DNA from: Candidatus Zhuqueibacterota bacterium
GTDB lineage: Bacteria > Zhuqueibacterota > Zhuqueibacteria > Oceanimicrobiales > Oceanimicrobiaceae
NCBI GenBank assembly: GCA_029262055.1
Contig: JAJDAD010000010.1
Coordinates: 1-64,000, forward strand
Length of the DNA: 64,000 nucleotides
Reading direction: 5' to 3'
Shown: positions 35,976-60,715 of the stretch, piece by piece
How the letters are laid out: the number at the start of each line of letters is the position of its first letter
Numbering within the stretch: position 1 is the first letter of the stretch
Made by a program: the position numbers and the translations under genes
The notes under the pieces: generated by a model
Told to the model about the DNA's origin: nothing
The model's database searches: none
What the model saw: the letters and a program-made list of their open reading frames with translations, nothing else

Positions 35976-36211
35976 TCCGCTGAAGGTTAGCAACGGGTAA
36001 TCGAAACAGTTAGATCTCCTCAGATCAGCTCTCGTTTACAGGGATCCAGGAGAGGCGGGCGGGGGGAAGGTGTAGTTATCGCTATCGCCCTACTTAAGAA
36101 GTATGAAGCGATCGATAAGTTTCATGAAATCTATGCAAACTCCAGATTACATGTTTGTACGACGATACCTGTTATGTCAGAAAAGTCGTATTGCTAGCCG
36201 GGATAGATTTT

Positions 36212-37942
36212 ATGAAAATGATCGCATCGGTATTACAGGCAGCACACACTCACATCCGCACTTCGGTACAATTCCTTTGTCTCACAACCCTGGTATTCCT
36301 ATCGGTTAGTGACAGCCTGTTCTCACAGGAGCCTGTAACCATTGACACTCTTGGAAACAACCGCGCAACTGCATACCCGATGCAGAACAAAATCATTTCA
36401 TCAGACATTGATGGTGTCCGGAAGACGTTCATTGCCTATGGAAAGAATACTGCAATTGATAGTTTTGCCGCCTGGCAAAGTATGAGTGTCTGGGTCGCAA
36501 CATTCGATCATCTCACTCAGGCTATAGAAAGCAAGACGCTTGTTGGGTATTTGCGTGACAATCATGGCTCGCCGGCTTTGACGATAGATCGTGACGGGTA
36601 TTTGCATATCGTCTATGGCGCTGCTTTTACGCCCGTCAGATATAGAAAGGCCCTGGAGCCCAACAGCGCGGCCAGCTGGTCACCCGAAGAGCGGATAAGC
36701 TCAGTTCACGGCCACCTGGATTCAAGTGATGTTTATTTATGGGACGACTACAGCACTCGCATGTCCGAGGGTGAGATGACATATCCCATCATTAAGACCG
36801 ATTCACGCAACAACATTCATATTGTCGGCAGCCTGCGCTTTGCTACCGGCTATCTGGGGAAGATTGATGGAGAATGGCGAGCACCTCAAATAGTCTATAC
36901 CGCTACAAAGTCATTGTCCCGGTATGATGTCATGATGAACATCATCGATGATGAGATCCATATCCTGGCGCCAGATCTGGAGTATATTCCCAATGAAGAT
37001 GGCCTGAAGCGAGGTGATCTGGAGTACCATCATTACGTATCCAGTAATTATGGCGATACTTTTAACTACAACGGCCTGGCATTCTCCGCAGCTGACGGCT
37101 ATGGATATGGCATTGGCAACATTTCATTTGATATGGACAAAGTCCCCCATTTCCTGGTGGTGAAACGGGACTGGGCACAAAAGAAAGGGTTTTGGTACAA
37201 TTCTTTTGATGGCGTTGCATGGCAATCGACCTACATAGATATTCCGGGTAAGCATGTATGGCTCGCCAAGATGGTTCATCATGGCAGCGATCCAATAATT
37301 GCTCTGCAGGTCAATGAAACAGTGGCGGATTGGGGAGACAGCACCAATCAAATTCAGCTTGTTCGGCTAAGAAAAGAACAGCAGGATTATTCCCTGGACA
37401 AAGTAGTTGATCTGACTGAAATAAGCACCGGCACTGCCGTCCTGAACTGGCTGCCGGTCCTGGAGGAAAATGAGACTTATTCCGACTTTTCCCCGGATGC
37501 AGTCAATGTGGTATGGACCTCTGACCCGGATCGGGGAGAAATGGAGTTGGACAGCATACCAGAACCCTCGCTTCAAAACCTCCTGAAGACAAAGGTAAAC
37601 CTATTCAGTTTTTCAATTGCGGCACTGTTTGATGCAACCACACACGTTGCTGCAAAAGACAACGCTGCACCGTCAGACATGATATTAGCATCAGCGTATC
37701 CAAACCCCTTCAATGCCCAGCTGTCTATCAAGTATGAGTCTGAAGCAGGGCTTGCTGAGAACGTGACCATAGGTGTCTACAACATCAGAGGTGAACTGGT
37801 TCAGACACTTCAGGATGGACATGTCTCTGCAGGTATTAACGCCGTCACATGGGATGCCTCCAATTATTCAACCGGCTACTACTTCATAAGGTTGAGCAAC
37901 AGAAATACATCCAGGACATTGCCGGTTACGTTGATTAAGTAA
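36212..37942 (+). CDS. Secreted beta-propeller-like protein with type IX sorting domain
   Basis: A 576-residue secreted protein. The N-terminus has a signal peptide (hydrophobic FLCLTTLVFLSVSDSLFS). The body has repeated short beta motifs (LTIDRDGYLHIVYG, IKTDSRNNIHIVGS, ISFDMDKVPHFLVV) like the BNR-type propeller proteins found with polysaccharide-degrading enzymes. The C-terminus (from about 37675) is a sorting domain with ASAYPNPFNAQ and GYYFIRLSN. It has no recognisable catalytic motif. It may bind or process the local polysaccharide. The start is uncertain: ATG 36212 or 36218 keep the signal peptide; the frame opens at 36155. Confidence 0.75.
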   Translation: MKMIASVLQAAHTHIRTSVQFLCLTTLVFLSVSDSLFSQEPVTIDTLGNNRATAYPMQNKIISSDIDGVRKTFIAYGKNTAIDSFAAWQSMSVWVATFDHLTQAIESKTLVGYLRDNHGSPALTIDRDGYLHIVYGAAFTPVRYRKALEPNSAASWSPEERISSVHGHLDSSDVYLWDDYSTRMSEGEMTYPIIKTDSRNNIHIVGSLRFATGYLGKIDGEWRAPQIVYTATKSLSRYDVMMNIIDDEIHILAPDLEYIPNEDGLKRGDLEYHHYVSSNYGDTFNYNGLAFSAADGYGYGIGNISFDMDKVPHFLVVKRDWAQKKGFWYNSFDGVAWQSTYIDIPGKHVWLAKMVHHGSDPIIALQVNETVADWGDSTNQIQLVRLRKEQQDYSLDKVVDLTEISTGTAVLNWLPVLEENETYSDFSPDAVNVVWTSDPDRGEMELDSIPEPSLQNLLKTKVNLFSFSIAALFDATTHVAAKDNAAPSDMILASAYPNPFNAQLSIKYESEAGLAENVTIGVYNIRGELVQTLQDGHVSAGINAVTWDASNYSTGYYFIRLSNRNTSRTLPVTLIK

Positions 37943-37972: not shown

Positions 37973-39013
37973 TTGCCCACCAACCAGGCAGCAGGACACA
38001 GCCAAACAAGCGTTCAAACCGAGGTCATTGCCGAAGTCGGCTCCGTGCATGACGGCAGTTTCGGGAATGCCCTGAAGCTGATCGAATTGGCGGCAGACTG
38101 CGGTGCGGACACGGTTAAGTTTCAAACCCACATTGCGGCGGCAGAGACACTAAAGGACGCTCCCATGCCACCGTTCTTCAAGGAGGAACCTCGCTACCAA
38201 TACTTCGAAAGAACCGGCTTTTCTGTGGAACAGTGGCGCGAACTGAAAGCCAAATGTGAAACGGTGGAGGTTGAGTTTCTCTCATCGCCATTTTCTATTG
38301 AGGCCGTTGAACTGCTGGAGGACCTCGGAGTACACAAGTATAAGATTCCATCGGGTGAGGTGACCAATCTACCGCTGCTGCAAGTCATTGCCGCAACAAA
38401 AAAACCGATACTGCTTTCGTCGGGCATGAGCACCTGGCTGGAAATCGATGCCGCTGTCAACACAATCCGGAAGATTCACGATGGCATCAGCGTGCTGCAG
38501 TGTACCAGTCATTATCCCTGCGACTACGCGAAGGTGGGGCTAAACGTGATGCTCGAGATGAAAGAGCGTTACGGTTTGCCCGTTGGCCTTTCCGACCATA
38601 CCAGCACAAACTACTCCTCTTTTGCTGCGGTGACTCTCGGTGCGACCGTTGTCGAAAAGCACCTGACTTTTAGCCGGCTGATGTATGGCAGTGATGCCAG
38701 ACATTCTTTGGATCCCAATGAATTCAAAGACCTGGTCGCAGGCATCCGCGGTATCGAGCAGATGCTGAACGGACAGGTGAACAAAGACGAGGAAGCAGGC
38801 CGGATGTCCGGCATGAAGGATATCTTTCAGAAAAGCGTGGTCTCTGTTGTTGACATCCCCCAAGGAACCATTTTGACCAACGATATGATTGGTTTCAAAA
38901 AACCAGGGACCGGCATTCCGGCCTCTAATGTCGATGCTGTAGTGGGTGCAAAGGTGGTTTGCGACATCCCCCGGGACACGCTCGTTCGAGCAGAAGATTT
39001 GGTGAAGGGCTAA
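37973..39013 (+). CDS. neuB: N-acetylneuraminate synthase family protein (NeuB)
   Basis: A 346-residue enzyme that condenses an N-acyl-mannosamine-type sugar with phosphoenolpyruvate into a nonulosonic acid. A TIM barrel (VIAEVGSVHDGSFGNALKLI (20), GADTVKFQTH, KIPSGEVTNLPLL, LLSSGMSTW, LQCTSHYPCDYAKVGL, GLSDHTS, VVEKHLTF) is followed by a C-terminal SAF/antifreeze-like domain (about residues 285-345, DIFQKSVVSVVDIPQGTILT, 20). The apparent start is TTG 37973 with no good ribosome-binding site, so the first ~15 residues are uncertain. With neuC and neuA nearby it probably makes Neu5Ac or an N-acyl variant; legionaminate is less likely, as no LegB/LegC genes are seen. Confidence 0.92.
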   Translation: MPTNQAAGHSQTSVQTEVIAEVGSVHDGSFGNALKLIELAADCGADTVKFQTHIAAAETLKDAPMPPFFKEEPRYQYFERTGFSVEQWRELKAKCETVEVEFLSSPFSIEAVELLEDLGVHKYKIPSGEVTNLPLLQVIAATKKPILLSSGMSTWLEIDAAVNTIRKIHDGISVLQCTSHYPCDYAKVGLNVMLEMKERYGLPVGLSDHTSTNYSSFAAVTLGATVVEKHLTFSRLMYGSDARHSLDPNEFKDLVAGIRGIEQMLNGQVNKDEEAGRMSGMKDIFQKSVVSVVDIPQGTILTNDMIGFKKPGTGIPASNVDAVVGAKVVCDIPRDTLVRAEDLVKG

Positions 39014-39023
39014 AGCTTCTTTG

Positions 39024-39962
39024 ATGAAAGACAATGCTCATCCGGTTGTGAATGTAGTAATGTATCACTATGTTTTCGACGCAGATGATAACGACTTCAA
39101 TCATCTGAAGGGCATCACAACAGATATGTTTCGCTCTCAAATCGATATTCTCGCCAAAGAATACAGTTTCATCTCAGCGCTGGATTATCTGGATTATATC
39201 GAGGATGGAAAACAACTTCCCCCAAAAGCATGTATCTTGTCATTTGATGATGGGACCAGTGATCACTACAGACATGTTTTCCCAATATTGCAGGAACTTG
39301 GGATTCCCGGGTATTTTTCAATTGTAACTTCAGCCATTCAGGACCGGCAGCCGCTATTCGTGAGTTTAATCCATAATATATTGGAATCATTCAGACCCCA
39401 GGATATCTGTCAAAAGATGAACAGCATCATCTCGGACAAGTATCCTGCTCATCCAAAGCTGTCTTTGGATCATGCTTATATGGGGTATCCATACGATACG
39501 AAGGAACGCGCGGCGATCAAGTATCAGGTAAACTACTGTTGGAACCCGTCAATCACGCAGGCCATCGTTAGTGATTTCTACAGCAGGTTTGTCGAACCAC
39601 TCGACGTATTTGTAGATAAATTCTATCTGGACTGGGACCAGGTGTTGGAGATGGAAGCAAATGATATGGTGATTGCAAATCACTCGCACAGGCATAGTGC
39701 GTATTCACTATTGTCAGATGATGAGATCGCTGACGATTTGAAAAAATCAGGGGAATACATTAGGGACAAGATTACGAATACAAGATCACTACGTTTTTTC
39801 ACCTATCCCTATGGGACAAAAGGCTCTTTCAATGGATCGACAATTGACATAGTAAAAGACTTCAAATACAAAATCGCTTTTTCGACCACTCGTGGACAAA
39901 ATGATGCAAGGGTGGATCTACTTAGATTAAAAAGAAACTCCACAAGCGATCTACCCAGTTAA
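39024..39962 (+). CDS. Polysaccharide deacetylase (NodB-type)
   Basis: A 312-residue NodB-fold metal-dependent deacetylase of carbohydrates. Motif 1 is LSFDDGTSDHYRHV, the metal-binding histidines are in IANHSHRHSAYS, and FFTYPYGTKGSF is the later motif. No signal peptide is seen, so it may act in the cytoplasm on a sugar or lipid-linked intermediate. It lies between neuB and the MaoC-SDR gene, so it could remove an acetyl group before another acyl group is added (inference). Start ATG 39024 (TTG 39021 is adjacent). Confidence 0.88.
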   Translation: MKDNAHPVVNVVMYHYVFDADDNDFNHLKGITTDMFRSQIDILAKEYSFISALDYLDYIEDGKQLPPKACILSFDDGTSDHYRHVFPILQELGIPGYFSIVTSAIQDRQPLFVSLIHNILESFRPQDICQKMNSIISDKYPAHPKLSLDHAYMGYPYDTKERAAIKYQVNYCWNPSITQAIVSDFYSRFVEPLDVFVDKFYLDWDQVLEMEANDMVIANHSHRHSAYSLLSDDEIADDLKKSGEYIRDKITNTRSLRFFTYPYGTKGSFNGSTIDIVKDFKYKIAFSTTRGQNDARVDLLRLKRNSTSDLPS

Positions 39963-39992
39963 CCTTGATGACGCGATAGCCAACCTTGTCAC

Positions 39993-40008
39993 AAAGGTAT
40001 AGACCATT
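39993..40008 (+). promoter_or_regulatory. Ribosome-binding site and probable ATT start codon of the MaoC-SDR gene
   Basis: AAAGG (39993-39997) is 8 nt before ATT 40006. After the in-frame TAG (40000-40002) there is no ATG, GTG or TTG until 40093, which lies inside the conserved hotdog motif. The coding sequence between matches the family's N-terminus, so ATT is the likeliest start. Confidence 0.6.
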
Positions 40009-41187
40009 ACAAAATTTGAAAAGATAAAAGTCGGCGATAAAGCAGAACTTGTTCACGTCATTACGCAACAGGATGTCGATCAGTTTGTAGAATTGACTGG
40101 TGACGATAACAAGCTGCACGTTGACAAGGACTACGCAAGCAGGACTCCGTATAAGAAGCCCGTTGCGCATGGTATGCTTGGTGCGTCGTTTATTTCAACG
40201 ATAATTGGAACGAAGCTACCTGGAGATGGCGCTCTCTGGTATGCACAGAATTTGGAGTTCTTACTGCCGGTAAGAGTTGGTGATGAAATCATCATAAAAG
40301 CCAGCGTAATAAAGAAAATTGATCGAACACAATCAATAGAGCTGTCTACTGAAATCTACAATCAAAACAGACAGAAAGTCACAACCGGAACAGCCAAAGT
40401 TAGGTTGGTTGAACAGGAACAACCTGTTTCCGAAATTGAAAAGCCTGTCAATAAAGTTGCCCTGGTTGTCGGTGGTACTGGCGGAATTGGAAGGGCCGCT
40501 TGCATACAGTTAGCTAAGGATGGATACGATGTTGCTGTTCACTACAACAGAAACAAGGGACTAGCAGAAGAAGTAAGAGACCAAGTCATAGGTCTTGGGA
40601 GGAGGGCATTTATCACTAATGCAGACATAGTTGACTTGGGTCTGGTACAGGAAATGATCAGTGATACAAAAAGGAAATTGGGCATAATCTCTGTCGTTGT
40701 TAACTGCACAACCTTGAATGTAGCTAGCATGAAATTTTCGGATTTGGAGTGGGAAGACATGTTCAATCATATTGAATTGAACATCAAGGGTTCATTCAAC
40801 ATCATGAAATGTGTGATCCCGGAAATGGAACTGAACAAGTATGGCAAAATAATAAACATCACAACTCAGTATGTTGATGACCCAAAACCGGAATTAGCAC
40901 CGTACATTACCGCGAAATCGGCTCTTGATGGTTTTACAAGAGCTGTTGCATTTGAATTGGCGCCTAAAGGAATTCGGGTTAATTCGGTTTCTCCGGGAAT
41001 GACCGAAACAGAGCTACTAGCGAATGTCCCCGAAAAAGTCAGACTGTTAACTGCCGCCCAGGCACCCTTAAGGCGTCTAGCGAGACCAGAGGACGTTGCC
41101 GGAGCCATCAGTTTTCTAGCTTCAGAGAAGTCAGACTACTTAACCGGAGAGACTATTCGAGTAAATGGTGGCCAAATCATGCTTTGA
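40006..41187 (+). CDS. MaoC-like hydratase fused to short-chain dehydrogenase/reductase
   Basis: A 393-residue two-domain enzyme. Residues 1-140 are a MaoC/(R)-hydratase hotdog domain with ELTGDDNKLHVDKDYA (catalytic Asp and His) and VAHGMLGASF. Residues 147-393 are an SDR with VGGTGGIGRAA, INITTQYV and YITAK (catalytic Tyr and Lys; the usual Ser is Thr) and PKGIRVNSVSPG, like ketoacyl-ACP reductases. Together they suggest reduction of a 3-ketoacyl group and reversible hydration of an enoyl group on a CoA or ACP carrier. It precedes the FkbH-like and ACP genes. The DNA here is A/T-rich. The start codon is probably ATT. Confidence 0.82.
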   Translation: MTKFEKIKVGDKAELVHVITQQDVDQFVELTGDDNKLHVDKDYASRTPYKKPVAHGMLGASFISTIIGTKLPGDGALWYAQNLEFLLPVRVGDEIIIKASVIKKIDRTQSIELSTEIYNQNRQKVTTGTAKVRLVEQEQPVSEIEKPVNKVALVVGGTGGIGRAACIQLAKDGYDVAVHYNRNKGLAEEVRDQVIGLGRRAFITNADIVDLGLVQEMISDTKRKLGIISVVVNCTTLNVASMKFSDLEWEDMFNHIELNIKGSFNIMKCVIPEMELNKYGKIINITTQYVDDPKPELAPYITAKSALDGFTRAVAFELAPKGIRVNSVSPGMTETELLANVPEKVRLLTAAQAPLRRLARPEDVAGAISFLASEKSDYLTGETIRVNGGQIML

Positions 41188-41387
41188 TGCAACCGCCCCT
41201 CTTTGAATACGCTGCGATTGTTAATTGCATGCCGGTCAGGCTTTCTTTACTACTACTTTCATCTTCAAGCAAATACACAGACCTTTAACTGCGGGCGTCT
41301 TTTCCCTGCTCAGCTCCTGCTTTCTTCAAAAATGAAGCGCAAGATAATACAAAAAACCTCACTCAATTCTACCCAGGGTGTGTCCTG

Positions 41388-43166
41388 ATGCTGGGGTCCA
41401 ATTCTCCAGGCACAGGGTCGACTTCTGAATTGAAGTATTCAGAAATCCTGAAACTGCACAAAGAGTCTGGCTCGAATCTGAATTCAGGCCCGTACAGGGT
41501 TAGCGTGCTTTCCAATATAACTGTTCATCAAATCAAGGAAATACTAGAACTCCCGCTCAGGCTTGAGCATATCAATGCGGATGTTTCTATTGGAGATTAC
41601 GATAACATTGTACAAGATAGTCTGAACTGCGAAGGGTCAAACGCGGTTATTATCTTCTGGGAATTGTGCAATATCGTCGATGGCCTACAACATAGAATCG
41701 AACTATTTGATGATGAGCAATTAGATGCAATTTTGGAAAAAGCCAAGTCTGAGATTGACCTGGTATTCAAAAACTTGCAGCAGACATCTCTAGTTCTCAT
41801 AAACAAGTTCACCGCACTTCAGTTTTCCCGATCAAATATCCGCTGTAACAGACTAGAGGAGTTAGCAAACCAGCTCAATAGATATCTGACACAACAGATG
41901 CCGGCCAATACAAGGTTGGTTGGAATTGAAAAAGTCCTCTCTGATGTTGGCGTGGCAAACGCCCTGGATATGAGGTATTATTATTCCTCAAAAGCACTAT
42001 ATACTATCGAGTTCTTCAAGGCTTATTCCAGATACATTTCACCCTTTTTTATGTCCGCCAATGGTAAAGCAAAGAAAGCACTGATTCTTGATTGTGATAA
42101 CACATTGTGGCACGGTGTATTGGGAGAGGATGGCTTTGACAATATCGACATGTCTCCGAACTCAAAGATCGGAGCGATTTTTTCAGAGATACAGGCGATG
42201 GCATTGACTTTGAATAAGCAAGGCGTCCTGCTCTGTTTGTGCAGTAAGAACAATCCTGCAGATGTTGCGGCAGTTGTATCTTCCCATCCGGATTTTCAGT
42301 TGAGAAAAGAGTATATCACCATCAATAAGAGTAACTGGCAAGACAAAGTGTCTAATATCCGGGACATTTCTGAAACACTGAATATTGGCATGGATAGTTT
42401 TGTGTTTGTGGATGATTCACCATTTGAAGCAAATATGATACGAGAGCATTTGCCGGAAGTCACAGTCCTGCAGGTGCCTGAGCGATTGCATGAATACCCA
42501 CAGATGTTTCGTGATAACCTGTCGCTGTTTTACAATCTTTCTTTTACCGCTGAGGACAAAAACAAGGTCGAGATGTATAAGCAACAGGCAAAAAGGGATT
42601 CCGCGAAGAAGGGATATACAGATATCGAGGATTATCTGGCGTCCCTGGGATTGAAGTTGACGGTATCGGTGGACGACATGTCTATTGTCCCGCGAATGTC
42701 ACAATTGAGCCAGAAAACAAATCAGTTCAATCTGACCACAAAAAGATATACGGAAGGTGAAATTACGAGCTTCATCGAAAATGAAGATTCAAAAGTCTTT
42801 TCATTCTCAGTCGCGGATAGATTTGGAGACAGCGGTGTTACGGGGCTCTGTATTGTCAAACTTTGCGATGATAGCCGCATGGCGGATGTAGACACATTCC
42901 TGATGAGCTGCAGAGTTCTTGGCAGGAATATTGAGTATGCTTTTGTTGACTACTTGTTGGGCACTCTGAAACAGAGTGAAGTCAAGACTGTCGCTGCCCA
43001 ATACTCGAGTACAAATAAGAACGAACAAGTAGAAGATTTCTATGATAAGTGTTGTTTCGTGGCAAAAAGCGACAGTAATTCTACAAAAAAGTACTCTCTG
43101 GATTTGGTCAAATATGAACCCAAACGACTAACCTACATTCAAGTTATCAATGGCAGATCAGATTAA
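41388..43166 (+). CDS. FkbH-like HAD-IIIC protein (acyl/glyceryl-ACP loading)
   Basis: A 592-residue protein of the FkbH family. Residues 1-220 resemble the SGNH-like N-terminal part, a HAD-IIIC domain carries LILDCDNTLWHGVLGEDG (Asp235, Asp237), CLCSKNNPADV and FVFVDDSPFEANMI, and the end is a GNAT-like region (DRFGDSGVTGLCIV, SCRVLGRNIEYAFVDYL). Known members transfer a glyceryl group from 1,3-bisphosphoglycerate onto an acyl carrier protein and dephosphorylate it. The ACP gene overlaps its 3' end (17 nt), a strong partner hint. Its place inside sialic-acid genes is unusual; glyceryl or a related hydroxyacyl would be the cargo (inference). Confidence 0.85.
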   Translation: MLGSNSPGTGSTSELKYSEILKLHKESGSNLNSGPYRVSVLSNITVHQIKEILELPLRLEHINADVSIGDYDNIVQDSLNCEGSNAVIIFWELCNIVDGLQHRIELFDDEQLDAILEKAKSEIDLVFKNLQQTSLVLINKFTALQFSRSNIRCNRLEELANQLNRYLTQQMPANTRLVGIEKVLSDVGVANALDMRYYYSSKALYTIEFFKAYSRYISPFFMSANGKAKKALILDCDNTLWHGVLGEDGFDNIDMSPNSKIGAIFSEIQAMALTLNKQGVLLCLCSKNNPADVAAVVSSHPDFQLRKEYITINKSNWQDKVSNIRDISETLNIGMDSFVFVDDSPFEANMIREHLPEVTVLQVPERLHEYPQMFRDNLSLFYNLSFTAEDKNKVEMYKQQAKRDSAKKGYTDIEDYLASLGLKLTVSVDDMSIVPRMSQLSQKTNQFNLTTKRYTEGEITSFIENEDSKVFSFSVADRFGDSGVTGLCIVKLCDDSRMADVDTFLMSCRVLGRNIEYAFVDYLLGTLKQSEVKTVAAQYSSTNKNEQVEDFYDKCCFVAKSDSNSTKKYSLDLVKYEPKRLTYIQVINGRSD

Positions 43167-43428
43167 AGACAGAATAAGGAATGTCATGTCTGCAGTTTTT
43201 GACATACCTGCCGAGATGATAAACGAGGAGTCTTCTCCAGACACAATTGAATCCTGGGATTCCCTGAAACACATGAACCTTGTTGTAGGTTTGGAGGAAG
43301 AATTTGACGTCGTCTTTTCAGATGAAGAGATTGTAGAAATGTTGAATTTTGCATTGATAAAGGAACTCCTTTCGAGCAGGGGAAATGACTCGAGCACGTC
43401 CGGCCAGGTCCTGAGTCAAGAGTTCTGA
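43150..43428 (+). CDS. Acyl carrier protein
   Basis: A 92-residue acidic four-helix carrier. The phosphopantetheine site is Ser38 in SWDSLKHMNLV, and EEFDVVFSDEEI is typical of helix III. It overlaps the FkbH-like gene by 17 nt. It is a dedicated ACP rather than the fatty-acid AcpP, which normally sits with fab genes and reads DSLDxVE. It probably carries the glyceryl or hydroxyacyl group for the neighbouring transferase. The tail after residue 80 is Ser-rich and probably unstructured. Confidence 0.92.
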   Translation: MADQIKDRIRNVMSAVFDIPAEMINEESSPDTIESWDSLKHMNLVVGLEEEFDVVFSDEEIVEMLNFALIKELLSSRGNDSSTSGQVLSQEF

Positions 43429-43540
43429 CGTTCATTACACCCAAGGCGTTCGATTAGAACATTGTCAATCGAACGTCCCCTTCCATCCAGGCTGATAGTA
43501 ATGCTGCAAGCCTGAGCCAAGTCCGTAAAGATCCCCCAAA

Positions 43541-44590
43541 GTGAATCACCATAAAATCTCTCAAGCAACAAGCCACGATGTTGATGACATTATGGACTTC
43601 ATCAGGCGAGAGTGGCGCTCAACTCATATCCTGGGAAATAACAAGCCCTTCTTCCTTTATGAGTTTCGATCTGATAAGGACATCAATTTTATAATTGCCA
43701 GAGAATTGTCTTCCGGGTCAATAACCGGGTTGGTGGGATTCATAAAGTCCAACTCTAGTGATACTCCTGATATTTGGACCTCGCTCTGGAAAGTAAAGAA
43801 AGGAACAAAAGACCCGGTTTTGGGGATAAGGATTCTGAATTTCTTGAGAAATAACATTCGACATAGAAAGCTAATTGTTGCTGGTTCTAATGATATCGCG
43901 TCAGCTCTCTTGAAACGAATGAAGTTCCAAACAGGATGTTATTCTCAATACTATATGATAAATCCTCATGTGGAAGACTATCGAATTCTGGTTTCAAAGG
44001 ACCACTCCAGGAAAGACACGGATAAAACATTGAAACCGGAAAACCGGCTAACCTTAGTCAGAGATTTTGATGACCTGGGTAGGTTTGACTCAGGTTTGTT
44101 TATCAATTCAATTCCATATAAGGACAGCAGCTATATTAAGAGAAGATACTTTGATTATCCTGATTTTGATTACTTGGTGTATGGAATCAAAACTGATGGC
44201 GACTATTCTTCCATTATCATCCTCCGGGAAGTCACCGTCGGTGATGCTAAAATCTTGCGGATAGTTGATTTTATAGGCAATGAAGAGGATTTGTTGCTGG
44301 TCAAAGATGATCTGAGGCAAATTCTGATTGACAACAAATATGAGTACATAGACTTCCTGGAGTACGGTATGTCAGATGATATACTTGCTGCTTTGGGGTT
44401 TTGTAAACTGAATGTAGAAAGCGACGACTTAATAGTTCCAAATTATTTTTCCCCGCTTGTTCAGGAAAACACGACGATCCATTTTGCCGCCGACATTCCA
44501 GTGAATGAAAAGTTCTTTCTATTTAAAGCCGATGGCGATCAAGACAGACCCAATCCACAAATTATAGCCAAAAGGGGAGCCGATGCGTAG
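43541..44590 (+). CDS. GNAT-like protein of the nonulosonic acid cluster
   Basis: A 349-residue protein with two apparent GNAT-like halves. ISQATSHDVDDIMDFIRREW and GLVGFIKSN resemble an acyltransferase N-terminal strand-helix pattern, and a second similar region begins near residue 170. A strict acyl-CoA binding loop is not obvious. Next to an ACP, an FkbH-like protein and neuC, the natural guess is an acyltransferase that moves the ACP-bound group to a sugar amine. It begins with GTG 43541 and overlaps neuC by 8 nt. I cannot exclude a non-catalytic role. Confidence 0.6.
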   Translation: MNHHKISQATSHDVDDIMDFIRREWRSTHILGNNKPFFLYEFRSDKDINFIIARELSSGSITGLVGFIKSNSSDTPDIWTSLWKVKKGTKDPVLGIRILNFLRNNIRHRKLIVAGSNDIASALLKRMKFQTGCYSQYYMINPHVEDYRILVSKDHSRKDTDKTLKPENRLTLVRDFDDLGRFDSGLFINSIPYKDSSYIKRRYFDYPDFDYLVYGIKTDGDYSSIIILREVTVGDAKILRIVDFIGNEEDLLLVKDDLRQILIDNKYEYIDFLEYGMSDDILAALGFCKLNVESDDLIVPNYFSPLVQENTTIHFAADIPVNEKFFLFKADGDQDRPNPQIIAKRGADA

Positions 44591-45749
44591 AATCTGCGTC
44601 TTCATAGGTAGCCGTGCCAATTACAGCAGCATTAAGTCTGTGATGAGAGCTGTCAAAGAAAATCCGGATACCGAATTGCAGTTGGTGACAGGGGCTTCTG
44701 CTTTGCTGGAGAGGTTTGGCAAGGTAGATGACCTCATTAAGAATGACGGTTTTATTCCCGACTATTCATTCCACAATATTGTTGAAGGTGGCAGCCCTAC
44801 CACAATGGCGAAGTCCACGGGTCTTGGCGTCATAGAAATGGCTATGGTGCTGGATAATTTGAAGCCGGACTTTGTAATCGTCGTAGGCGACCGTTTCGAA
44901 ATGATGGCCATAACGATTGCTGCTGCGTATATGAATATTCGTATCGCTCATACCATGGGCGGTGAAGTCACAGGTACTATTGATGAGAGCATTCGGCATG
45001 CAATCACCAAGTTCGCGCATATTCACTTCCCGGCAAACAGAGATGCTCGTGATAGAATCATTCGAATGGGTGAAGAAGAGAGCCATGTTTTTAATGTCGG
45101 CTGTCCGAGAATTGACCTGGTCGCGGAAGAATTGAAAAAAGATTCAATTGAGTTCCTGAATAATGGCAGCAAGTTTTTTGATAAGTACAAGGGAGTTGGG
45201 GGAACATTTGATTTTGAAAAACCTTTCCTAATGGTTTCCCAGCACCCGGTGACAACAGAGTTTGGCGATAATCGGCGGCAGATCGAAAACACTTTGAATG
45301 CTCTTAGTGAACTAAAAATTAACACCATAGTCTTGTGGCCAAATATTGATGCCGGTAGCGATGAGGTGGCTAAGGGTATCCGCACATTCAGGGAGAAGCA
45401 TAATGCCGATTGGCTTCATGCTTTCATCAGCCTGCCCACAGACGTCTACATTCATTTGATGAATACAACTGACTGCTTAATCGGGAACAGCAGCTCCGGT
45501 ATTAGAGAAGGTGCCTTTATAGGCGTTCCAGTGGTAAACATCGGCACTCGCCAAAAATTCCGTATGCGAGCAGAAAATGTAATTGACGTAGACCACAGCA
45601 CCACTGAAATATTGGACGGAATCACAAAGCACTTAAAAAACAGTCGCTATGAGCGCAGCACTATTTATGGCGATGGAACCGCGGGTGAGAGAATATCAGG
45701 TATTCTGGGAGAAGTGAATCCACCCGTGCAAAAGCACATTGTATATTGA
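44583..45749 (+). CDS. neuC: UDP-GlcNAc 2-epimerase, hydrolysing (NeuC-like)
   Basis: A 388-residue GT-B-fold enzyme that converts UDP-GlcNAc (or a diacetamido form) to the free manno-configured sugar plus UDP. Typical stretches: CVFIGSRANYSSIKSVMRAV (20), VIVVGDRFEMMAITIAA, HTMGGEVTGTIDESIRHAIT (20), VGCPRIDL, LIGNSSSGIREG and VVNIGTRQ. Substrate choice between NeuC (GlcNAc) and LegG (bacillosamine) is not decidable by eye; the absence of dehydratase and aminotransferase genes in the window favours NeuC. It overlaps neuA (TGATG). Confidence 0.92.
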   Translation: MRRICVFIGSRANYSSIKSVMRAVKENPDTELQLVTGASALLERFGKVDDLIKNDGFIPDYSFHNIVEGGSPTTMAKSTGLGVIEMAMVLDNLKPDFVIVVGDRFEMMAITIAAAYMNIRIAHTMGGEVTGTIDESIRHAITKFAHIHFPANRDARDRIIRMGEEESHVFNVGCPRIDLVAEELKKDSIEFLNNGSKFFDKYKGVGGTFDFEKPFLMVSQHPVTTEFGDNRRQIENTLNALSELKINTIVLWPNIDAGSDEVAKGIRTFREKHNADWLHAFISLPTDVYIHLMNTTDCLIGNSSSGIREGAFIGVPVVNIGTRQKFRMRAENVIDVDHSTTEILDGITKHLKNSRYERSTIYGDGTAGERISGILGEVNPPVQKHIVY

Positions 45750-46480
45750 TGAGATCGCTAGGAATTATCCCCGCCAGAGGGGGCTCGAGGGAGCTACCCT
45801 TAAAGAATATCATAGAATTAAACGGTGAGCCCCTCATCACGTTCACGATTCGGGCTGCATTGTGTTCGAACCTGGATAGAGTTATTGTCTCGACTGATGA
45901 TGAAGCAATCGCAGAGGTAGCGTGTGATTCCGGTGCCGAAGTGATGATGCGTCCTGCAGAGCTGGCCCGGCATGATACGCCGACCCTGCCGGTCCTGCAA
46001 CACGTGGCTGAAAATCTGGACGAAAGGTTTGACTGGGTCGTCACCCTGCAGCCTACATCACCATTCCGCACCTCAAAACATATCAATGAAGCTTTGGAAT
46101 TCTTCGAGCAACGTCCTGATGCAGATACTCTGGTGAGCGTAACTGAAGTTCCTCACAATATGGTGCCAGCGTCACTCATGACCATGGAAAACGAGTATTT
46201 GAGAACGTGTACTAGTCAAAAGAAACTAACGACAAGGCGTCAGGAAAAACCCAAACTTTATGCGCGCAATGGTCCGGCGATCCTGATACTGCAGGCAAAC
46301 AGATTGGAGATTAGCGAACTGTATGCCGGCAAGGTAGTTCCGTATTTCATGGATGCTATTTGTTCCGTTGATATCGATGATAGAGAGGATTTGGAAATCG
46401 CGCAATGCCTATACCCTCTGTGGCAGAGAAGTTCTGGCGGACCCGAAAATCCCTGCGAAGTCATCGCAACGCACACGTAA
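45749..46480 (+). CDS. neuA: CMP-N-acylneuraminate cytidylyltransferase (NeuA-like)
   Basis: A 243-residue GT-A-fold enzyme that activates a nonulosonic acid with CTP to CMP-sugar. Key motifs are GIIPARGGSRELPLKNI, VSTDDEAIAEVA, LQPTSPFRT and VDIDDREDLEIAQ. The usual GSKGIPRKN reads GSRELPLKN. The ATG shares one base with the neuC stop. It completes the neuB-neuC-neuA set, so the locus can make a CMP-linked nonulosonic acid from UDP-GlcNAc-type precursors. Confidence 0.92.
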   Translation: MRSLGIIPARGGSRELPLKNIIELNGEPLITFTIRAALCSNLDRVIVSTDDEAIAEVACDSGAEVMMRPAELARHDTPTLPVLQHVAENLDERFDWVVTLQPTSPFRTSKHINEALEFFEQRPDADTLVSVTEVPHNMVPASLMTMENEYLRTCTSQKKLTTRRQEKPKLYARNGPAILILQANRLEISELYAGKVVPYFMDAICSVDIDDREDLEIAQCLYPLWQRSSGGPENPCEVIATHT

Positions 46481-46496
46481 TGAATGGAGACAGATT

Positions 46497-48071
46497 ATGA
46501 ACGTCTTACTGCTATATCCTGCATTCGATACACCCTGGCCGCCACCCAAGCCTGACCGTCCACCTTTGGGGCTATTCACAATTGCAGCCCCATTGGTCGC
46601 AAAAGGAATAGAGGTGACCGTGCTTGATGAGAGAGCGATCTTCAATGTGTTTGAGCAGCGGCTAATGGAGGAATTGGCAAAAGAGCCGGTATGCGTAGGG
46701 ATTAGCACGATGAGCGTTAATCACATAACCAATGCGTTGCGTGTGAGCAGAATCGTAAAAGAGAATTCTAACTCGCCGGTGGTCTGGGGAGGAAATCAGG
46801 CGTCCTTAGAACCCCTGTCTACGCTTAAGCACGAGCTGATTGATTACGTAGTGCCACATGATGGGGAAGAAGTCTTCCTGGAGCTGGTAGAGGCTCTTGA
46901 CGAGGGCTCTGACCTCAGTCAGATAAGAGGCATTGGCTGGAAAGATGAGGGTGAAGCCTTATTGAATCCGCCGGCGCTGCCCGGTGATATTATGGCAATC
47001 CCCCCGATCCCATTCCATTTGATTGATTTTGATGACTATGAGGTTGGCTCGGGGATCTGGCAGCGGGCATTTGACATCAGCCCAAAAGAAAAAGTGATTC
47101 CGCTGGAGACCAGCAGGGGCTGCCCGTTTATCTGTTCATTTTGCACGGAATCTGTTCGCAAAAAGAAGTGGAGAACCTTGACACCGGAGCGGGTGCTGGA
47201 AGACGTAAAGTACCATATGGAGAAGACCGGCATCAAGAATTTCTGCTTTGTGGATGACAACCTGTTTGGACATGTGAAACGAGGTGAAGAGATTGTTGAA
47301 CTATTTGCCGAACAAAGTCTCGACGTCAAGTGGTACACAAATATCAGACCCGATTTCATGGCAAAAGCAGATAAATCGTTCGTCAGCGATCTTCACAAAG
47401 CCGGCTGCCGACACGCCACCTTCGGAGCCGAATCTGGTTCCGATGAGATTCTGGAAGATATTAATAAGAAGTCTACGCTACAAAATGTCTTCAAAACCAA
47501 TCTCAACCTTGTCGGCTCAGATATCCTGCCGTCGTTCTTCTGCATACTAGGATTTCCTGATGAAACGGTGGCTGATCTTAAACAGACCTTTTCGATGATG
47601 ATCAAGCTACAGCTTGACAATCCTGCTTCCGTGACGCCCTATGCGTTGCTGATCGCCACTCCGGGCACGGAGCTGGCAGAACGGTGTATCGGCGTCTCAA
47701 CGAAGAACCTGACGCTGGAGGATTGGGTTGACATAATTGACAACCAGAGAAACAAGAGATCGTCATGGATTCTGGACGAGACACATGATTACATCTATTC
47801 TCACGAGATGTTTCTGAAAATAATCCTGCGCTTGAACAAGAACATAACAATGATGTTTCCGGTTTACAGGTTTTTGCTAAGAGTCTATAGCGTAGGCATG
47901 AAGGTGGGATTTAGCCGGCACCTGGATTCCCTGCTAAAGAATGCTGTTTTGCTCAGAAGGACTTTGTTAGACCTGGTGGGTAGTGCCGGCAAGGCCTTTT
48001 CCGGCCTGTTTCATAGCAGGAAACCAGTGCCGAACTTGCAAAAGAACGTAAACTACCCGAATAATTGGTAG
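46497..48071 (+). CDS. B12-binding-domain radical SAM protein
   Basis: A 524-residue protein. Residues 1-140 match a cobalamin-binding domain (PLGLFTIAAPLVAKGIEVTV (20), LDERAI, VWGGNQASLEP). A radical SAM barrel follows with the 4Fe-4S motif at Cys209, Cys213 and Cys216 in SRGCPFICSFCTE, plus FVDDNLFG and GAESGSDEIL. The C-terminal ~120 residues are basic and partly hydrophobic. Such enzymes typically methylate unreactive carbon, or rearrange or cyclise substrates. In this place it may modify the nonulosonic acid or its acyl group (inference). ATG 46497 has GGAGA (46486-46490) 6 nt upstream. A 218-bp gap follows. Confidence 0.85.
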   Translation: MNVLLLYPAFDTPWPPPKPDRPPLGLFTIAAPLVAKGIEVTVLDERAIFNVFEQRLMEELAKEPVCVGISTMSVNHITNALRVSRIVKENSNSPVVWGGNQASLEPLSTLKHELIDYVVPHDGEEVFLELVEALDEGSDLSQIRGIGWKDEGEALLNPPALPGDIMAIPPIPFHLIDFDDYEVGSGIWQRAFDISPKEKVIPLETSRGCPFICSFCTESVRKKKWRTLTPERVLEDVKYHMEKTGIKNFCFVDDNLFGHVKRGEEIVELFAEQSLDVKWYTNIRPDFMAKADKSFVSDLHKAGCRHATFGAESGSDEILEDINKKSTLQNVFKTNLNLVGSDILPSFFCILGFPDETVADLKQTFSMMIKLQLDNPASVTPYALLIATPGTELAERCIGVSTKNLTLEDWVDIIDNQRNKRSSWILDETHDYIYSHEMFLKIILRLNKNITMMFPVYRFLLRVYSVGMKVGFSRHLDSLLKNAVLLRRTLLDLVGSAGKAFSGLFHSRKPVPNLQKNVNYPNNW

Positions 48072-48289: not shown

Positions 48290-50080
48290 ATGGAGGAAGT
48301 CTCAGACGGAGATATACAGAGGGTTGCCGATGTCGTCGATATCGCGGCTGCCCTTCATGTTCATCGCGATGATGTTCTGTGGCCGGAGGGGTGGAAAGTC
48401 ACCAAACAGGCAATCCCGTCACAAAGGTCCCCGGAGTTCTACAACGATTTGATGGAGGGTCTGGATCGATTCATTGCCAAGGTACATGGCAAGCCGGGCT
48501 GGCGAATGGCACTGTCTTATCAGGGTATTGATTTTTTGGAAGTTGCGAGATATGATTGGTTTGCCGCTATCTATGAATTTATCCATCCCGTTTGGGTCCT
48601 AGACCAGGTTCTGAAAGAGAGCGCGCCCGAGGTTTTTGTCTGGGTGACGGCATTCAACCATAAGCCCAAAGGTTCACTGTGGCGCCTCACCAAGGTCTTC
48701 GCAGAAAGAGGTATCCGTGTCGTTCAACTGCCGACGGAGCCAGGAGAATCTGCTCAAGCCGAAACGGGCTCAATTCTCCAATTCTACAAAGAAGCGCTGA
48801 GGGGTGTTAGGCACTCAGTGCAGGCCGGATTACAAGCTTTTTCCTCACAGTTCGGAAGGCACCGTCCAGCGGTCCCGGCAAGTCCGCATGTTATGTTCGT
48901 TGAAAATCACCCTAATAGCGCGAAGATATCGGCATCGGTCGCCAGGGTTATTGACGATCGGAGAGATTGGGATTGTCATTTCGTGGCAACACGAGCCAAC
49001 GTAATGAGCAACATTCCAGAGCTAAAGCATGCATATCTAATAGACGACATGATTCCGCCCGCAATATGGCTAAAGATTGCCCTGAAACAGGTCTTGATGT
49101 TCTTCCATCTTCAAGTCATTTGTGCGCAACTAATACGCAGGAATAGCGATCCACTATGGAATGACCTGATTTTGATAATAAGGCCCTGGTTTCTCCGGTA
49201 CACGGTTAAGTCCTGGAACCGCGCCGCTACACACAGCTGCATGCTGGATTACATCGTAAGGAAATTTACACCGAAGGTCGTGGCCTCCACAAGTGGTTGG
49301 GGATCATTCGCAAGGGCTGCAGTGATATCTGCAAAACGGCAAGAAGCCAGCAGCGTGTACATTCAACATGGGAGTTTTCAGTTCCCGCACATGTTTCGCT
49401 TGCCACAAGATAAGTACCTGGTGTGGGGTGAAAGAGACAAGCACTCGTGGGTAGAAGCCGGCATAGCTTCACATGATATTCATGTAACTGGTTCCCCGAA
49501 GTTCGAGGACGTCCGAGCATCCAATAAGAAAAGTCCGGCGGGGGAATCGGATGAATTCATGCTGGCCTATTTCCCGGCGATTGCGGGCGGAAACCGGGTT
49601 TCCGTCAGTGCTTCGAAGCGAATGCTGGACATCGTCTTGAGTTCAGTCAACTCCATACAAAACACCAAATTGGTGGTAAAAACAAAGAACGAGGATAGGG
49701 CTGACATATATCAGGCAGTTGAGAACCTTGAATTCGCAGAACTGGTAAATACCTATGATGCCTCGGAAACACTGCTGGAAGCCGATGCAATTATCGTGTC
49801 TACCAGTACTGTTGGCCTGGAGGCCTGTTTGCTGGATAAACCGATAATTGTTCTCAGTACTGATGGAATTGTCGTTGACGATGTTTACCAGGACTATGGC
49901 GCCGCGTTGTTTGCCAATTCCTCTTCAGAGTTAAAGGCAGGCATCGAAAAGTTAAGAGACGATGGCGAATTGTTGAAACAGTTGGAGTTAGGAAGGAAAA
50001 AGTTAGTCAAGGATCTATTTGCCGATGCGGCCCCCGGGGCCACAGAAAGAATAGCGGACATAATATCCAATGAAGAATAA
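48290..50080 (+). CDS. Putative GT-B glycosyltransferase / polymer transferase
   Basis: A 596-residue protein. The C-terminal half looks like the GT-B fold of CDP-glycerol glycerophosphotransferases and capsule synthases: VYIQHGSFQFPHMFRLPQDK (20), YLVWGERDKHSWVEAGI, HVTGSPKF, and AIIVSTSTVGLEACLLDKPI (20) near the end. The N-terminal half is not recognised. It may transfer the nonulosonic acid or a phosphopolyol. The frame is open upstream of ATG 48290 with coding-like codons from ATC 48266, which lies 7 nt after GGAG (48255-48258), so the true start may be non-standard; ATG 48290 itself has no ribosome-binding site. It overlaps the next gene by 11 nt. Confidence 0.65.
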   Translation: MEEVSDGDIQRVADVVDIAAALHVHRDDVLWPEGWKVTKQAIPSQRSPEFYNDLMEGLDRFIAKVHGKPGWRMALSYQGIDFLEVARYDWFAAIYEFIHPVWVLDQVLKESAPEVFVWVTAFNHKPKGSLWRLTKVFAERGIRVVQLPTEPGESAQAETGSILQFYKEALRGVRHSVQAGLQAFSSQFGRHRPAVPASPHVMFVENHPNSAKISASVARVIDDRRDWDCHFVATRANVMSNIPELKHAYLIDDMIPPAIWLKIALKQVLMFFHLQVICAQLIRRNSDPLWNDLILIIRPWFLRYTVKSWNRAATHSCMLDYIVRKFTPKVVASTSGWGSFARAAVISAKRQEASSVYIQHGSFQFPHMFRLPQDKYLVWGERDKHSWVEAGIASHDIHVTGSPKFEDVRASNKKSPAGESDEFMLAYFPAIAGGNRVSVSASKRMLDIVLSSVNSIQNTKLVVKTKNEDRADIYQAVENLEFAELVNTYDASETLLEADAIIVSTSTVGLEACLLDKPIIVLSTDGIVVDDVYQDYGAALFANSSSELKAGIEKLRDDGELLKQLELGRKKLVKDLFADAAPGATERIADIISNEE

Positions 50081-54843: not shown

Positions 54844-55761
54844 ATGAGTACAATTGCCAAAGCCACCTTGGATATCCTAGGAATGGGATGCGCTGCCGTT
54901 GATGACATCCTTTATGTCACCAAGTATCCGAACGCTGACAGAAAAGTCCCCGTGCTGCAGCGCAGACGAGAGGTCGGGGGATTGACCGCGCGCGCCTTAC
55001 TGGCGGCCTCGGCCCTCGGCGCAAAGTGTGCCTACGCCGCAATACTGGGCTATGATGACCTGTCTGAGTTTGTCCTGAGTGAACTCAGTTCCGCAGGTGT
55101 TGAAATCGAGACAGTCAGAAAAGAAAGTGAAGCAAGCGCGATGCACACCGTCGCCATTGTGTCTGAGGCAGAGTCGACGCGCAATACTTTTTTTGATGAT
55201 AGGCGCTGGCAGCAGGTGCAATCTGATTGGCCGCCGGTCGCAGTGATTGGCTCGGCTCGTGTCCTGCTGCTCGACAACTATATCGGCGTAGCGGCAGCCA
55301 TCAGGGCGGCCTCGATTGCCCGCGATGCGGCGATACCGGTTGTCGCTGACCTGGAAGTGCAGGACGCTCGTTTTTTTGAACTGTTTGACATGGTGGACCA
55401 CCCGATAATCTCCCAACCTTTTGCCGAGAAGCTGACCGGTCAGGCTGATCCTGCAGTGGCTCTGGAAAAACTCTGGACGCCGGAACGGGTATTCCTGGCA
55501 ATAACGGCCGGGCAAGACGGGTGCTGGTATCGCTGCGGGAATGATCCGCAGACCTATCATCAGCCGGCCTTTCGTGTTACAGCGGCGGACACTACGGGTT
55601 GTGGCGACGTCTTTCATGGAGCCTACGCGGCGGCTCTTGCCGGAAAACGACCGGCCCGGGAAAGGATCCAGATCGCTTCGGCCGCAGCCGCTCTGAAGGC
55701 GCAGGGGATAGTGCCCGCAATGGAGGCGGTAAACAGAATGATGGAGCATTCGCAGGCATGA
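54844..55761 (+). CDS. PfkB-family carbohydrate kinase
   Basis: A 305-residue ribokinase-like kinase that phosphorylates a sugar or nucleoside. The N-terminal region reads ILGMGCAAVDDILYVTKYP and REVGGLTARALLAASALGAK (20). The catalytic C-terminal signature is DTTGCGDVFHGAYAA, with Asp as the base. Substrate unknown. With transketolase, HAD phosphatase and nucleotidyltransferase genes in the same run, it may phosphorylate a sugar for nucleotide activation. It overlaps the GDPD gene by 4 nt (ATGA). Confidence 0.9.
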   Translation: MSTIAKATLDILGMGCAAVDDILYVTKYPNADRKVPVLQRRREVGGLTARALLAASALGAKCAYAAILGYDDLSEFVLSELSSAGVEIETVRKESEASAMHTVAIVSEAESTRNTFFDDRRWQQVQSDWPPVAVIGSARVLLLDNYIGVAAAIRAASIARDAAIPVVADLEVQDARFFELFDMVDHPIISQPFAEKLTGQADPAVALEKLWTPERVFLAITAGQDGCWYRCGNDPQTYHQPAFRVTAADTTGCGDVFHGAYAAALAGKRPARERIQIASAAAALKAQGIVPAMEAVNRMMEHSQA

Positions 55762-56459
55762 AGCCATTCAGAGTATTTGCGCACCGGGGGCTGTGGCGCA
55801 ACCCCGAGGATGAGAACAGCCTGGCTGCGCTGTCGCGTGCACTTGCAAGCGGGTTTGATATCGAAACAGATCTGAGACTGCTCAATGGTGAGTTCGTAAT
55901 CAAGCACGATGAACCACTGGCTTCCGAGTCTTTGCCCGCGTTGCTCGATGCTGTAGCACTCATGCAGGACTATCCTGAGCGTGAGTTGGCCCTTCACTTT
56001 AAGTATGATGATTGGCGCGACCCCGAGTCATTTGCGGTCATCGACCTGCTGCAACCGATAAAAGAGCAAGTTTTCTTGTTTGACATGTCAGTTGAGTTCT
56101 GCGAGCAACTCAAGAATCGGGACGCCGCCATTCGTGTCGGCGTTTCCGTGGGTGACAAACGCTACCACGAGGCTTTTGCTGACCTGGAAACTGCGTTGTC
56201 TTCAAACATTGATGTCATCTGGGCTGATGAATTTAGAGAGTTTTACCATCCTGAAGTTATAACCTTGTGTCACCGCGCCAACAAGCTAGTCTATTGCATA
56301 TCGCCCGATTTAGCGGCATCGATTGGGCATCCACGCGCACACGTAGGCTACAGGGAAGTTTGGCAAAACCTAATCCAATGGGGCGCCGACGGCATTTGCA
56401 CTGATCAAAGCATGGAGCTAAGGAAAACGTATGCAGATAATAGTACCAGCAGCCGGTAA
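55758..56459 (+). CDS. Glycerophosphodiester phosphodiesterase-family protein
   Basis: A 233-residue TIM-barrel GDPD protein. Diagnostic residues are FAHRGLWRNPEDENSLAAL (His-Arg and Glu-Asn), FDIETDLRLLNGEFVIKHDE (20; metal Glu and Asp, catalytic His). These enzymes release glycerol-3-phosphate from glycerophosphodiesters. There is no signal peptide, so it is cytoplasmic. ATG 55758 shares ATGA with the kinase stop; the frame opens further upstream over the kinase gene. It overlaps the nucleotidyltransferase gene by 29 nt. Confidence 0.88.
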   Translation: MKPFRVFAHRGLWRNPEDENSLAALSRALASGFDIETDLRLLNGEFVIKHDEPLASESLPALLDAVALMQDYPERELALHFKYDDWRDPESFAVIDLLQPIKEQVFLFDMSVEFCEQLKNRDAAIRVGVSVGDKRYHEAFADLETALSSNIDVIWADEFREFYHPEVITLCHRANKLVYCISPDLAASIGHPRAHVGYREVWQNLIQWGADGICTDQSMELRKTYADNSTSSR

Positions 56460-57222
56460 TGGCAATCGATTCCAGGAACAAGGCTACACGGACCCGAAGC
56501 CGTTAATTCAAGTTCTCGGGAAGCCACTTGTCAGGTGGTCTACGGGAGGGCTACAGAGCAATGACGAGCACCGCTACATTTTCTTGCTAAGACAGAGTCA
56601 TATTGACGAATTTCAGATTGACCAACGGTTGGGTGAGTGGTACAGCAACTACTCTGTTATTCCGGTCAAGACAGTTACGGAAGGGCAGGCTTGCACCGCT
56701 CTGCTGGCCCGCGATGCGCTGGACCGGGATGAGGAACTCGCGATTGTCAACTGCGACAACCTGTTTTCCATAGACCTGGTGCGAGCCAAGCGCGAACTCA
56801 AGATAGATGAGGACAGCCGGGGTATTGTATTTTATATTGCCGGAAACAATCCGGCCTGGAGCTATGTCGCGACAAATGACCTGGGCTTCGCGACCCGCGT
56901 CGTGGAAAAAGAGGTCATCTCCGACAAGGCAACAGTTGGCTGTTATTACTTCACGAAGGCGAAACACTTCCTGGATGCCGCTGACCTGATGATCGAGCGC
57001 AATATCAGGTACCGCGGGGAGTTTTATGTGTCGCCCACCTACAATCTCTTCATCGAAGACGGGAAGAAAGTCCATACCTGGCCGTGTGATTTTCATTTTA
57101 GCTTGGGTACGCCGGAAGAGGTGGCGCGCTTCACATCTCTGTTCGAGACCGAACCCGTTGTTCGTGTCAATGGCAATGTTCTGGTCGAAAACGGACGCGA
57201 GTCCACACCCGTATCACTATGA
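56431..57222 (+). CDS. Sugar nucleotidyltransferase (capsule-type)
   Basis: A 263-residue GT-A-fold nucleotidyltransferase. MQIIVPAAGNGNRFQEQGYT (20) and DPKPLIQVLGKPLV form the NTP-binding loop, with AIVNCDNLFSIDL (Asp pair) further on. It resembles capsule nucleotidyltransferases of uncertain donor and should activate a sugar-1-phosphate or polyol phosphate. It overlaps the GDPD gene by 29 nt and the HAD gene by 4 nt, so the set is translationally coupled. Confidence 0.85.
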   Translation: MQIIVPAAGNGNRFQEQGYTDPKPLIQVLGKPLVRWSTGGLQSNDEHRYIFLLRQSHIDEFQIDQRLGEWYSNYSVIPVKTVTEGQACTALLARDALDRDEELAIVNCDNLFSIDLVRAKRELKIDEDSRGIVFYIAGNNPAWSYVATNDLGFATRVVEKEVISDKATVGCYYFTKAKHFLDAADLMIERNIRYRGEFYVSPTYNLFIEDGKKVHTWPCDFHFSLGTPEEVARFTSLFETEPVVRVNGNVLVENGRESTPVSL

Positions 57223-57869: not shown

Positions 57870-57891
57870 CAACGGAGAAAAGGAAGAAAAT

Positions 57892-59757: not shown

Positions 59758-59863
59758 CGGGCCCGGTGCCAGTTACTCGTCACACTCGTGTTCCCTTCTC
59801 CACATCCCTGGAACAGCGATTCTCTCATCGGTCATGGTCTCATAACTATTCCGGATCAACATT

Positions 59864-60670: not shown

Positions 60671-60715
60671 GCGATTGCACAATTCACGCAGGTGGAAAAT
60701 CATGAGGACCGGCTC

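Follow-up and report, generated by a model that had tools for sequence, protein, structure and literature searches.

Nonulosonic acids decorated with unusual acyl groups are already known, and several described systems resemble parts of the locus considered here, a nine-gene block at positions 37973–48071 of a 64,000-nucleotide stretch of DNA from an uncultured Candidatus Zhuqueibacterota bacterium. This stretch, hereafter the window, comprises bases 1–64000 of a 140 kb contig (JAJDAD010000010.1) in a draft genome of 5.7 Mb and 114 contigs. In Campylobacter jejuni, a Cj1295-dependent di-O-methylglyceric acid derivative of pseudaminic acid likewise places a glyceric-acid group on a nonulosonic acid, but the sugar is pseudaminic and the locus is that of flagellin (PMC3068675). 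The dedicated lgaHI and psaGH genes of Acinetobacter swap N-acetyl for a hydroxyacyl group, giving N-(R)-3-hydroxybutanoyl legionaminic and pseudaminic acids; however, they act on the 7-amino group, and the term "acyl carrier" is absent from the main text of that report (PMC9676051). The flagellar pse islands of Aeromonas hold acyl genes based on an acyl carrier protein (ACP) within a nonulosonic acid locus (ACP, 3-oxoacyl-ACP reductase, AMP ligase and luxE/luxC), but with other acyl chemistry and no mention of FkbH (PMC7874193). These three systems are precedents for the unusual acyl group that an earlier, sequence-only reading of this DNA had predicted. The sialic acid pathway of the GNE/NeuC type shares the NeuC, NeuB and NeuA set, whereas the window embeds in it a deacetylase, a GNAT protein and an ACP-acyl cassette. 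Finally, polyketide modules for tetronates and methoxymalonyl-ACP also place FkbH beside a standalone ACP, with glyceryl-ACP as the expected product (PMC7489565); unlike these, the window adds a MaoC-SDR fusion, has no polyketide synthase and lies amid nonulosonic acid genes. Within the open-licence literature (subscription papers lay outside the search), we found no nonulosonic acid operon combining an FkbH/MaoC-SDR/ACP acyl source with a deacetylase and a GNAT protein, nothing tying FkbH to legionaminic acid, O-antigen or MaoC, and nothing on pseudaminic acid together with glyceric acid and an ACP.

We propose, with a probability of about 0.5, that the block makes a CMP-nonulosonic acid, probably of the neuraminic type, in which a small hydroxyacyl group, assembled on a dedicated ACP, takes the place of N-acetyl. 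From gene content, order, overlaps, families, catalytic residues and recurrence across phyla, we infer the following reactions, acyl group, acceptor and order of steps. NeuC would convert UDP-GlcNAc to N-acetylmannosamine, and the NodB-type deacetylase would strip the N-acetyl group before or after this step. Meanwhile, the FkbH-like enzyme would load glyceryl from 1,3-bisphosphoglycerate onto the ACP, the MaoC domain would dehydrate glyceryl-ACP to an enol or pyruvoyl form, and the SDR domain would reduce this form to lactoyl-ACP; if this step is absent, the acyl group would stay glyceryl. The double-GNAT protein would then transfer the acyl group from the ACP to the free amine, NeuB would condense the product with phosphoenolpyruvate, NeuA would activate it, and a surface-polysaccharide glycosyltransferase would attach the sugar to the polymer. 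A further, tentative proposal is that MaoC-SDR, FkbH and ACP together turn 1,3-bisphosphoglycerate into lactoyl-ACP without a ketosynthase, a route that may have been traded between bacteria and archaea, would supply hydroxyacyl groups for amino sugars, and here might lead to an N-lactoyl or N-glyceroyl nonulosonic acid by way of the deacetylase and the GNAT protein.

All nine genes named by the sequence-only reading are present, in the order it gave and on the + strand; every gene call stands, with small corrections to two gene starts. Pfam and NCBIfam confirm the families of all but the ACP and the GNAT-like protein. The overlaps it reported are also real, amounting to 17 bp between the FkbH and ACP genes, 8 bp between the GNAT gene and neuC, and 4 bp between neuC and neuA. 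In addition, the NodB gene starts 7 bp after neuB, and the radical SAM gene probably 14 bp after neuA. The GC content of the block (42–48%) is lower than that of the first 30 kb of the window (50–59%).

The nonulosonic acid core begins with NeuB (37973–39013), which has both NeuB (PF03102, 253.8 bits) and SAF (PF08666) domains. Eleven of the 15 checked positions of Neisseria NeuB are identical, and the active-site identities include E25, K53, Q55, K129, S132, Y186, H215, E234, H236 and D247; the protein falls short of the TIGR03569 equivalog cut-off (347.4 against 399.65 bits), and it is a member of the NeuB superfamily, not a proven Neu5Ac synthase. The equivalent of Neisseria Arg314, a residue that we take to contact the N-acyl group, is Arg in 23 of 35 aligned rows and Lys in the window protein only, a change that is no more than suggestive. 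A second NeuB-like gene, 35% identical, lies elsewhere in the source genome (contig 93, 32956–33969). NeuC (44583–45749), a probable hydrolysing UDP-GlcNAc 2-epimerase, passes the TIGR03568 cut-off (393.9 against 235.9 bits). Its best solved relative is human GNE (4zht, 250 bits), with which it has the motifs QHPVTT and PNIDAGS in common; LegG from Acinetobacter (5xvs) scores lower, at 206 bits. A small NeuC tree, with weak support and no starred branch, groups the window protein with GNE and the NeuC of locus L135 (loci and genomes from our searches carry the prefixes L and G), and places LegG, L060, L132 and L134 apart; the NeuC of Escherichia coli K1 forms a long branch, and its addition does not settle the choice between the neuraminic and legionaminic types. 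NeuA (45746–46480; PF02348) is a NeuA/PseF-like CMP-nonulosonic acid synthetase that scores 138 bits against TIGR03584, below the cut-off of 205.7. No LegB or LegC dehydratase or aminotransferase gene was found within the neu block; candidates picked out by reading of the sequence lie approximately 45 kb downstream on the contig. Because NeuC is GNE-like and the block is without LegB and LegC, the core sugar is probably neuraminic rather than legionaminic, and on the same grounds a legionaminic core was considered but not preferred.

FkbH enzymes use 1,3-bisphosphoglycerate to load an ACP with glyceryl (PMC7489565, PMC8949500), and the FkbH-like HAD protein of the window (41388–43166), a putative glyceryl transferase/phosphatase, scores well above the curated TIGR01686 cut-off (288 against 146.65 bits). 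Its HAD aspartates D235 and D237 are kept in 85 of 86 homologues, and C508 in all 86. The preceding gene (40006–41187) encodes a fusion of a MaoC dehydratase (PF01575) with an SDR reductase (PF13561), whose MaoC dyad D33/H38 is found in 24 of 24 homologues and whose SDR pair Y300/K304 (YxxxK) is found in 23 of 24. The dedicated ACP (43150–43428) matches ACP models weakly, but its Ser38, within a WDSL motif, is conserved in all 70 homologues, and an ACP gene directly follows FkbH in most relatives.

This gene association extends well beyond the window. A search for FkbH across 84,980 genomes was made and the 80 best loci were taken; 23 of these have a full-length MaoC-SDR fusion within 3 kb of FkbH, usually no more than about 150 bases away, with an ACP detected at 21 of the 23. 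The fusion loci belong to Bacteroidota, Campylobacterota, Cyanobacteriota, Actinomycetota and a Woesearchaeota metagenome-assembled genome (MAG). In the FkbH tree, the window belongs to a 22-row clade (SH-aLRT 99) that spans the same four bacterial phyla, Acidobacteriota and one Woesearchaeota MAG, and 19 of these rows have the MaoC-SDR fusion. The Woesearchaeota assignment could be wrong, as it comes from a 12 kb contig in a draft bin. Given that this combination reappears in other phyla, MaoC-SDR, FkbH and ACP constitute a mobile cassette and not a chance run of genes. Within the source phylum, FkbH matches occur in 8 of 82 genomes, including the source genome; three others (G025, G029 and G033) have both FkbH and NeuB matches, on different contigs, and the window GNAT protein has one other match, in G019, so the combination is, as far as searched, confined to the source genome within its phylum.

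NeuB lies within 10 kb of FkbH in 9 of the 80 best loci. This is well above random placement, since NeuB matches occur in about one third of genomes (27 of 82, counted in the source phylum), although part of the proximity reflects shared habitat, both kinds of gene occupying surface-polysaccharide loci. The sequence-only reading had suggested a search for FkbH-ACP pairs beside neuB, and would have given up its proposal had the two never occurred together; the pair does accompany neuB in other genomes, for example at L060 and L135.

The link between acyl source and sugar would be made by the GNAT-like and NodB-type proteins. The former (43541–44590) has no direct match in Pfam or NCBIfam, but a homologue at L133 matches GNAT Pfam models. 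Along its full length, an AlphaFold model built with eight relatives (pLDDT 73.6) resembles double-GNAT N-myristoyltransferases (E ~1e-11, TM ~0.5), and on this model the protein is a double-GNAT-fold acyltransferase; together with its neighbours, this makes it a candidate acyl-ACP:amino-sugar N-acyltransferase. The NodB-type polysaccharide deacetylase (39021–39962; PF01522), a putative sugar N-deacetylase, has a homologue adjoining the GNAT homologue in five loci (L060, L130, L132, L133 and L149). A possible frameshift at the end of the NodB gene was ruled out, as comparison with the L060 homologue favours an in-frame end.

The locus closest in content is L060, from a gammaproteobacterium, which reads ACP, FabG, FabH, GNAT, NodB, NeuC, NodB, MaoC-SDR, FkbH, ACP, a second GNAT, a beta-lactamase-fold protein, NeuB, a NeuD-like protein and a nucleotidyltransferase, and is thus almost the whole window set without the radical SAM enzyme. 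L135 combines NeuB, NeuC (48% identical to that of the window), GNAT, NeuA, MaoC-SDR, FkbH and ACP, and L132 has FkbH-ACP-GNAT-NodB with LegB, NeuC, NeuB and a nucleotidyltransferase nearby. On one Nitrosotenuis contig (L130 and L103), FkbH-ACP-MaoC-phosphopantetheinyl transferase and NeuB are followed further on by NeuA, GNAT-NodB and NeuC. Other loci are more partial. A GNAT fragment accompanies NeuB and NeuC in L134, and FkbH-ACP-GNAT has no neuB in its vicinity in L036 and L038. L133 is limited to GNAT-NodB, and L149 reads FabH-GNAT-NodB-FabH-ACP-FabG, where only a DSL motif identifies the ACP. Neither NeuB nor NeuC lies within roughly 10 kb of the three weakest GNAT matches of the class search. 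Overall, the GNAT family is tied to a deacetylase and to some ACP-based acyl source, the kind of which varies, and this constancy of GNAT and NodB with a changing acyl source is the pattern expected of an acyl-ACP-dependent N-acyltransferase.

Some features of these loci deserve mention in their own right. In L037, L048, L055, L060 and L078, the gene after the ACP (or FkbH) belongs to another GNAT-like family, distinct from that of the window; a profile comparison of the two families gave no clear link. Between the second GNAT gene and neuB of L060 (12746–14173), a protein of 475 residues with a weak beta-lactamase-fold match is perhaps a sugar-modifying enzyme. In Nitrosotenuis (L103, 9923–12715), the FkbH-ACP-MaoC genes and the 4'-phosphopantetheinyl transferase gene after them form a self-contained archaeal carrier-protein kit.

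The identity of the acyl group can be approached through the genes that accompany the cassette. No FabF- or FabH-like gene was detectable in 13 of the 23 fusion loci, and FabH-like neighbours occur at just two loci, L040 and L043, of the 16-row FkbH clade that includes the window; because most cassettes of this clade are without a nearby ketosynthase, the conversion of glyceryl-ACP to lactoyl-ACP would be the simplest chemistry, and it is the route that we favour. To our knowledge, archaea lack fatty acid synthase II, so that the archaeal FkbH-ACP-MaoC loci also fit the lactoyl route. Chain extension, in which a ketosynthase from elsewhere would let MaoC-SDR work on a 3-ketoacyl group to give either 3-hydroxybutyryl or some longer acyl chain with several hydroxyls, fits these distributions less well, and would leave FkbH without a natural role unless glyceryl were the starter. 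It draws some strength from the SDR domain, whose best NCBIfam match is acetoacetyl-CoA reductase, and from seven loci whose MaoC-SDR gene is immediately preceded by a FabH-like gene (L050, L051, L054 and L056–L059), which may make an extended product or use the FabH-like protein as an acyltransferase; 3-hydroxybutanoyl nonulosonic acids are also known (PMC9676051). We regard chain extension in the window as quite unlikely. That the acyl group is simply glyceryl, delivered as N-glyceroyl by FkbH, ACP and GNAT while MaoC-SDR acts elsewhere or on another substrate, seems unlikely as well. In its favour, FkbH is documented to produce glyceryl-ACP (PMC7489565), Campylobacter decorates pseudaminic acid with glyceric acid (PMC3068675), and the fusion is missing from the FkbH-ACP-GNAT sets of L132 and L038; against it, MaoC-SDR adjoins FkbH in 19 of the 22 rows of the window's clade with its catalytic residues kept.

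A different question is whether the ACP module delivers its acyl group to some other amino sugar in the polysaccharide, with neuBCA making an ordinary N-acetylated nonulosonic acid. The acceptor could be such a sugar because most cassettes, although common in polysaccharide loci, are without a nearby neuB, and because NeuB matches are lacking in G019 and G086, both of which carry the GNAT family and an ACP source; moreover, the polysaccharide locus of the window extends to about 96 kb of the contig and includes CDP-dideoxyhexose-, aminotransferase- and dehydratase-like genes. However, the GNAT gene overlaps neuC and the NodB gene closely follows neuB, GNAT homologues lie near neuB or neuC in L060, L130, L132, L134 and L135, and the window NeuB has Lys at the presumed N-acyl contact. 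We consider this alternative rather unlikely. The idea of a sialic-type sugar with an ACP-built acyl swap, as put forward by the sequence-only reading, accordingly stands in part: NodB and GNAT are linked to ACP sources, but the cassette is not specific to nonulosonic acids.

Several observations weigh against the preferred reading, a hydroxyacylated nonulosonic acid with a lactoyl-type group. Most FkbH cassette loci have no neuB within 10 kb, and the FkbH proteins of L132 and L135 are distant from that of the window in the FkbH tree. No NeuB match was found in G019 (L149) or G086 (L038), each with a GNAT homologue and an ACP source, so this GNAT family sometimes has an acceptor other than a nonulosonic acid. 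A FabH-like gene lies near 10 of the 23 fusion loci, in seven of them at the upstream position already described, which would fit chain extension. We found no tested precedent for the lactoyl step in the open-licence literature; lactyl starters made by FkbH with a dehydratase reportedly occur in bryostatin and FR901464 biosynthesis, although that literature gave no confirmation of this. A DH-MT-FkbH-ACP module was noted in the oocydin paper and is thought inactive. The catalytic Ser of the SDR domain is Thr in the window (17 Ser and 6 Thr among 23 homologues), and the MaoC-SDR gene lacks ATG, GTG or TTG at the homologous start, its frame opening at ATT 40006 right after a stop, which reflects a rare start codon or a sequence error. 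Finally, confidence in the GNAT model is middling, and the support in the NeuC tree is weak.

The last gene of the block encodes a radical SAM protein with both a B12-binding domain (PF02310) and a radical SAM domain (PF04055; cluster motif CPFICSFC), most likely starting at 46494 rather than 46353 and ending at 48071. It reaches no NCBIfam equivalog cut-off, including those of curated methyltransferases. A role as a conserved partner of the cassette was rejected, as matches in other cassette loci are weak and limited to L038 and L084, and the enzyme is given no step in the proposed scheme. Downstream on the same strand, a surface-polysaccharide GT-B-like protein (48290–50080; TIGR04396, 48 bits, below cut-off) is a candidate nonulosonic acid transferase, with weak similarity in L130. 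Immediately upstream of neuB lies a gene for a BNR-repeat protein with a Por secretion tail (36155–37942). Further on, a single run at 54844–61642, assigned partly from its sequence, comprises a PfkB kinase, a phosphodiesterase-like open reading frame, nucleotidyltransferase-like, HAD-like and transketolase-like genes and a second NodB deacetylase, and may make a further odd sugar product.

If the proposal is correct, unusual N-acyl groups on sialic-like sugars would be predictable from genomes by a simple rule, namely from the kind of acyl source beside the GNAT and NodB genes. It would also provide a likely role for the FkbH-ACP cassettes found in the polysaccharide loci of many phyla, archaea included, and archaeal carrier proteins would then have a job outside fatty acid synthesis.

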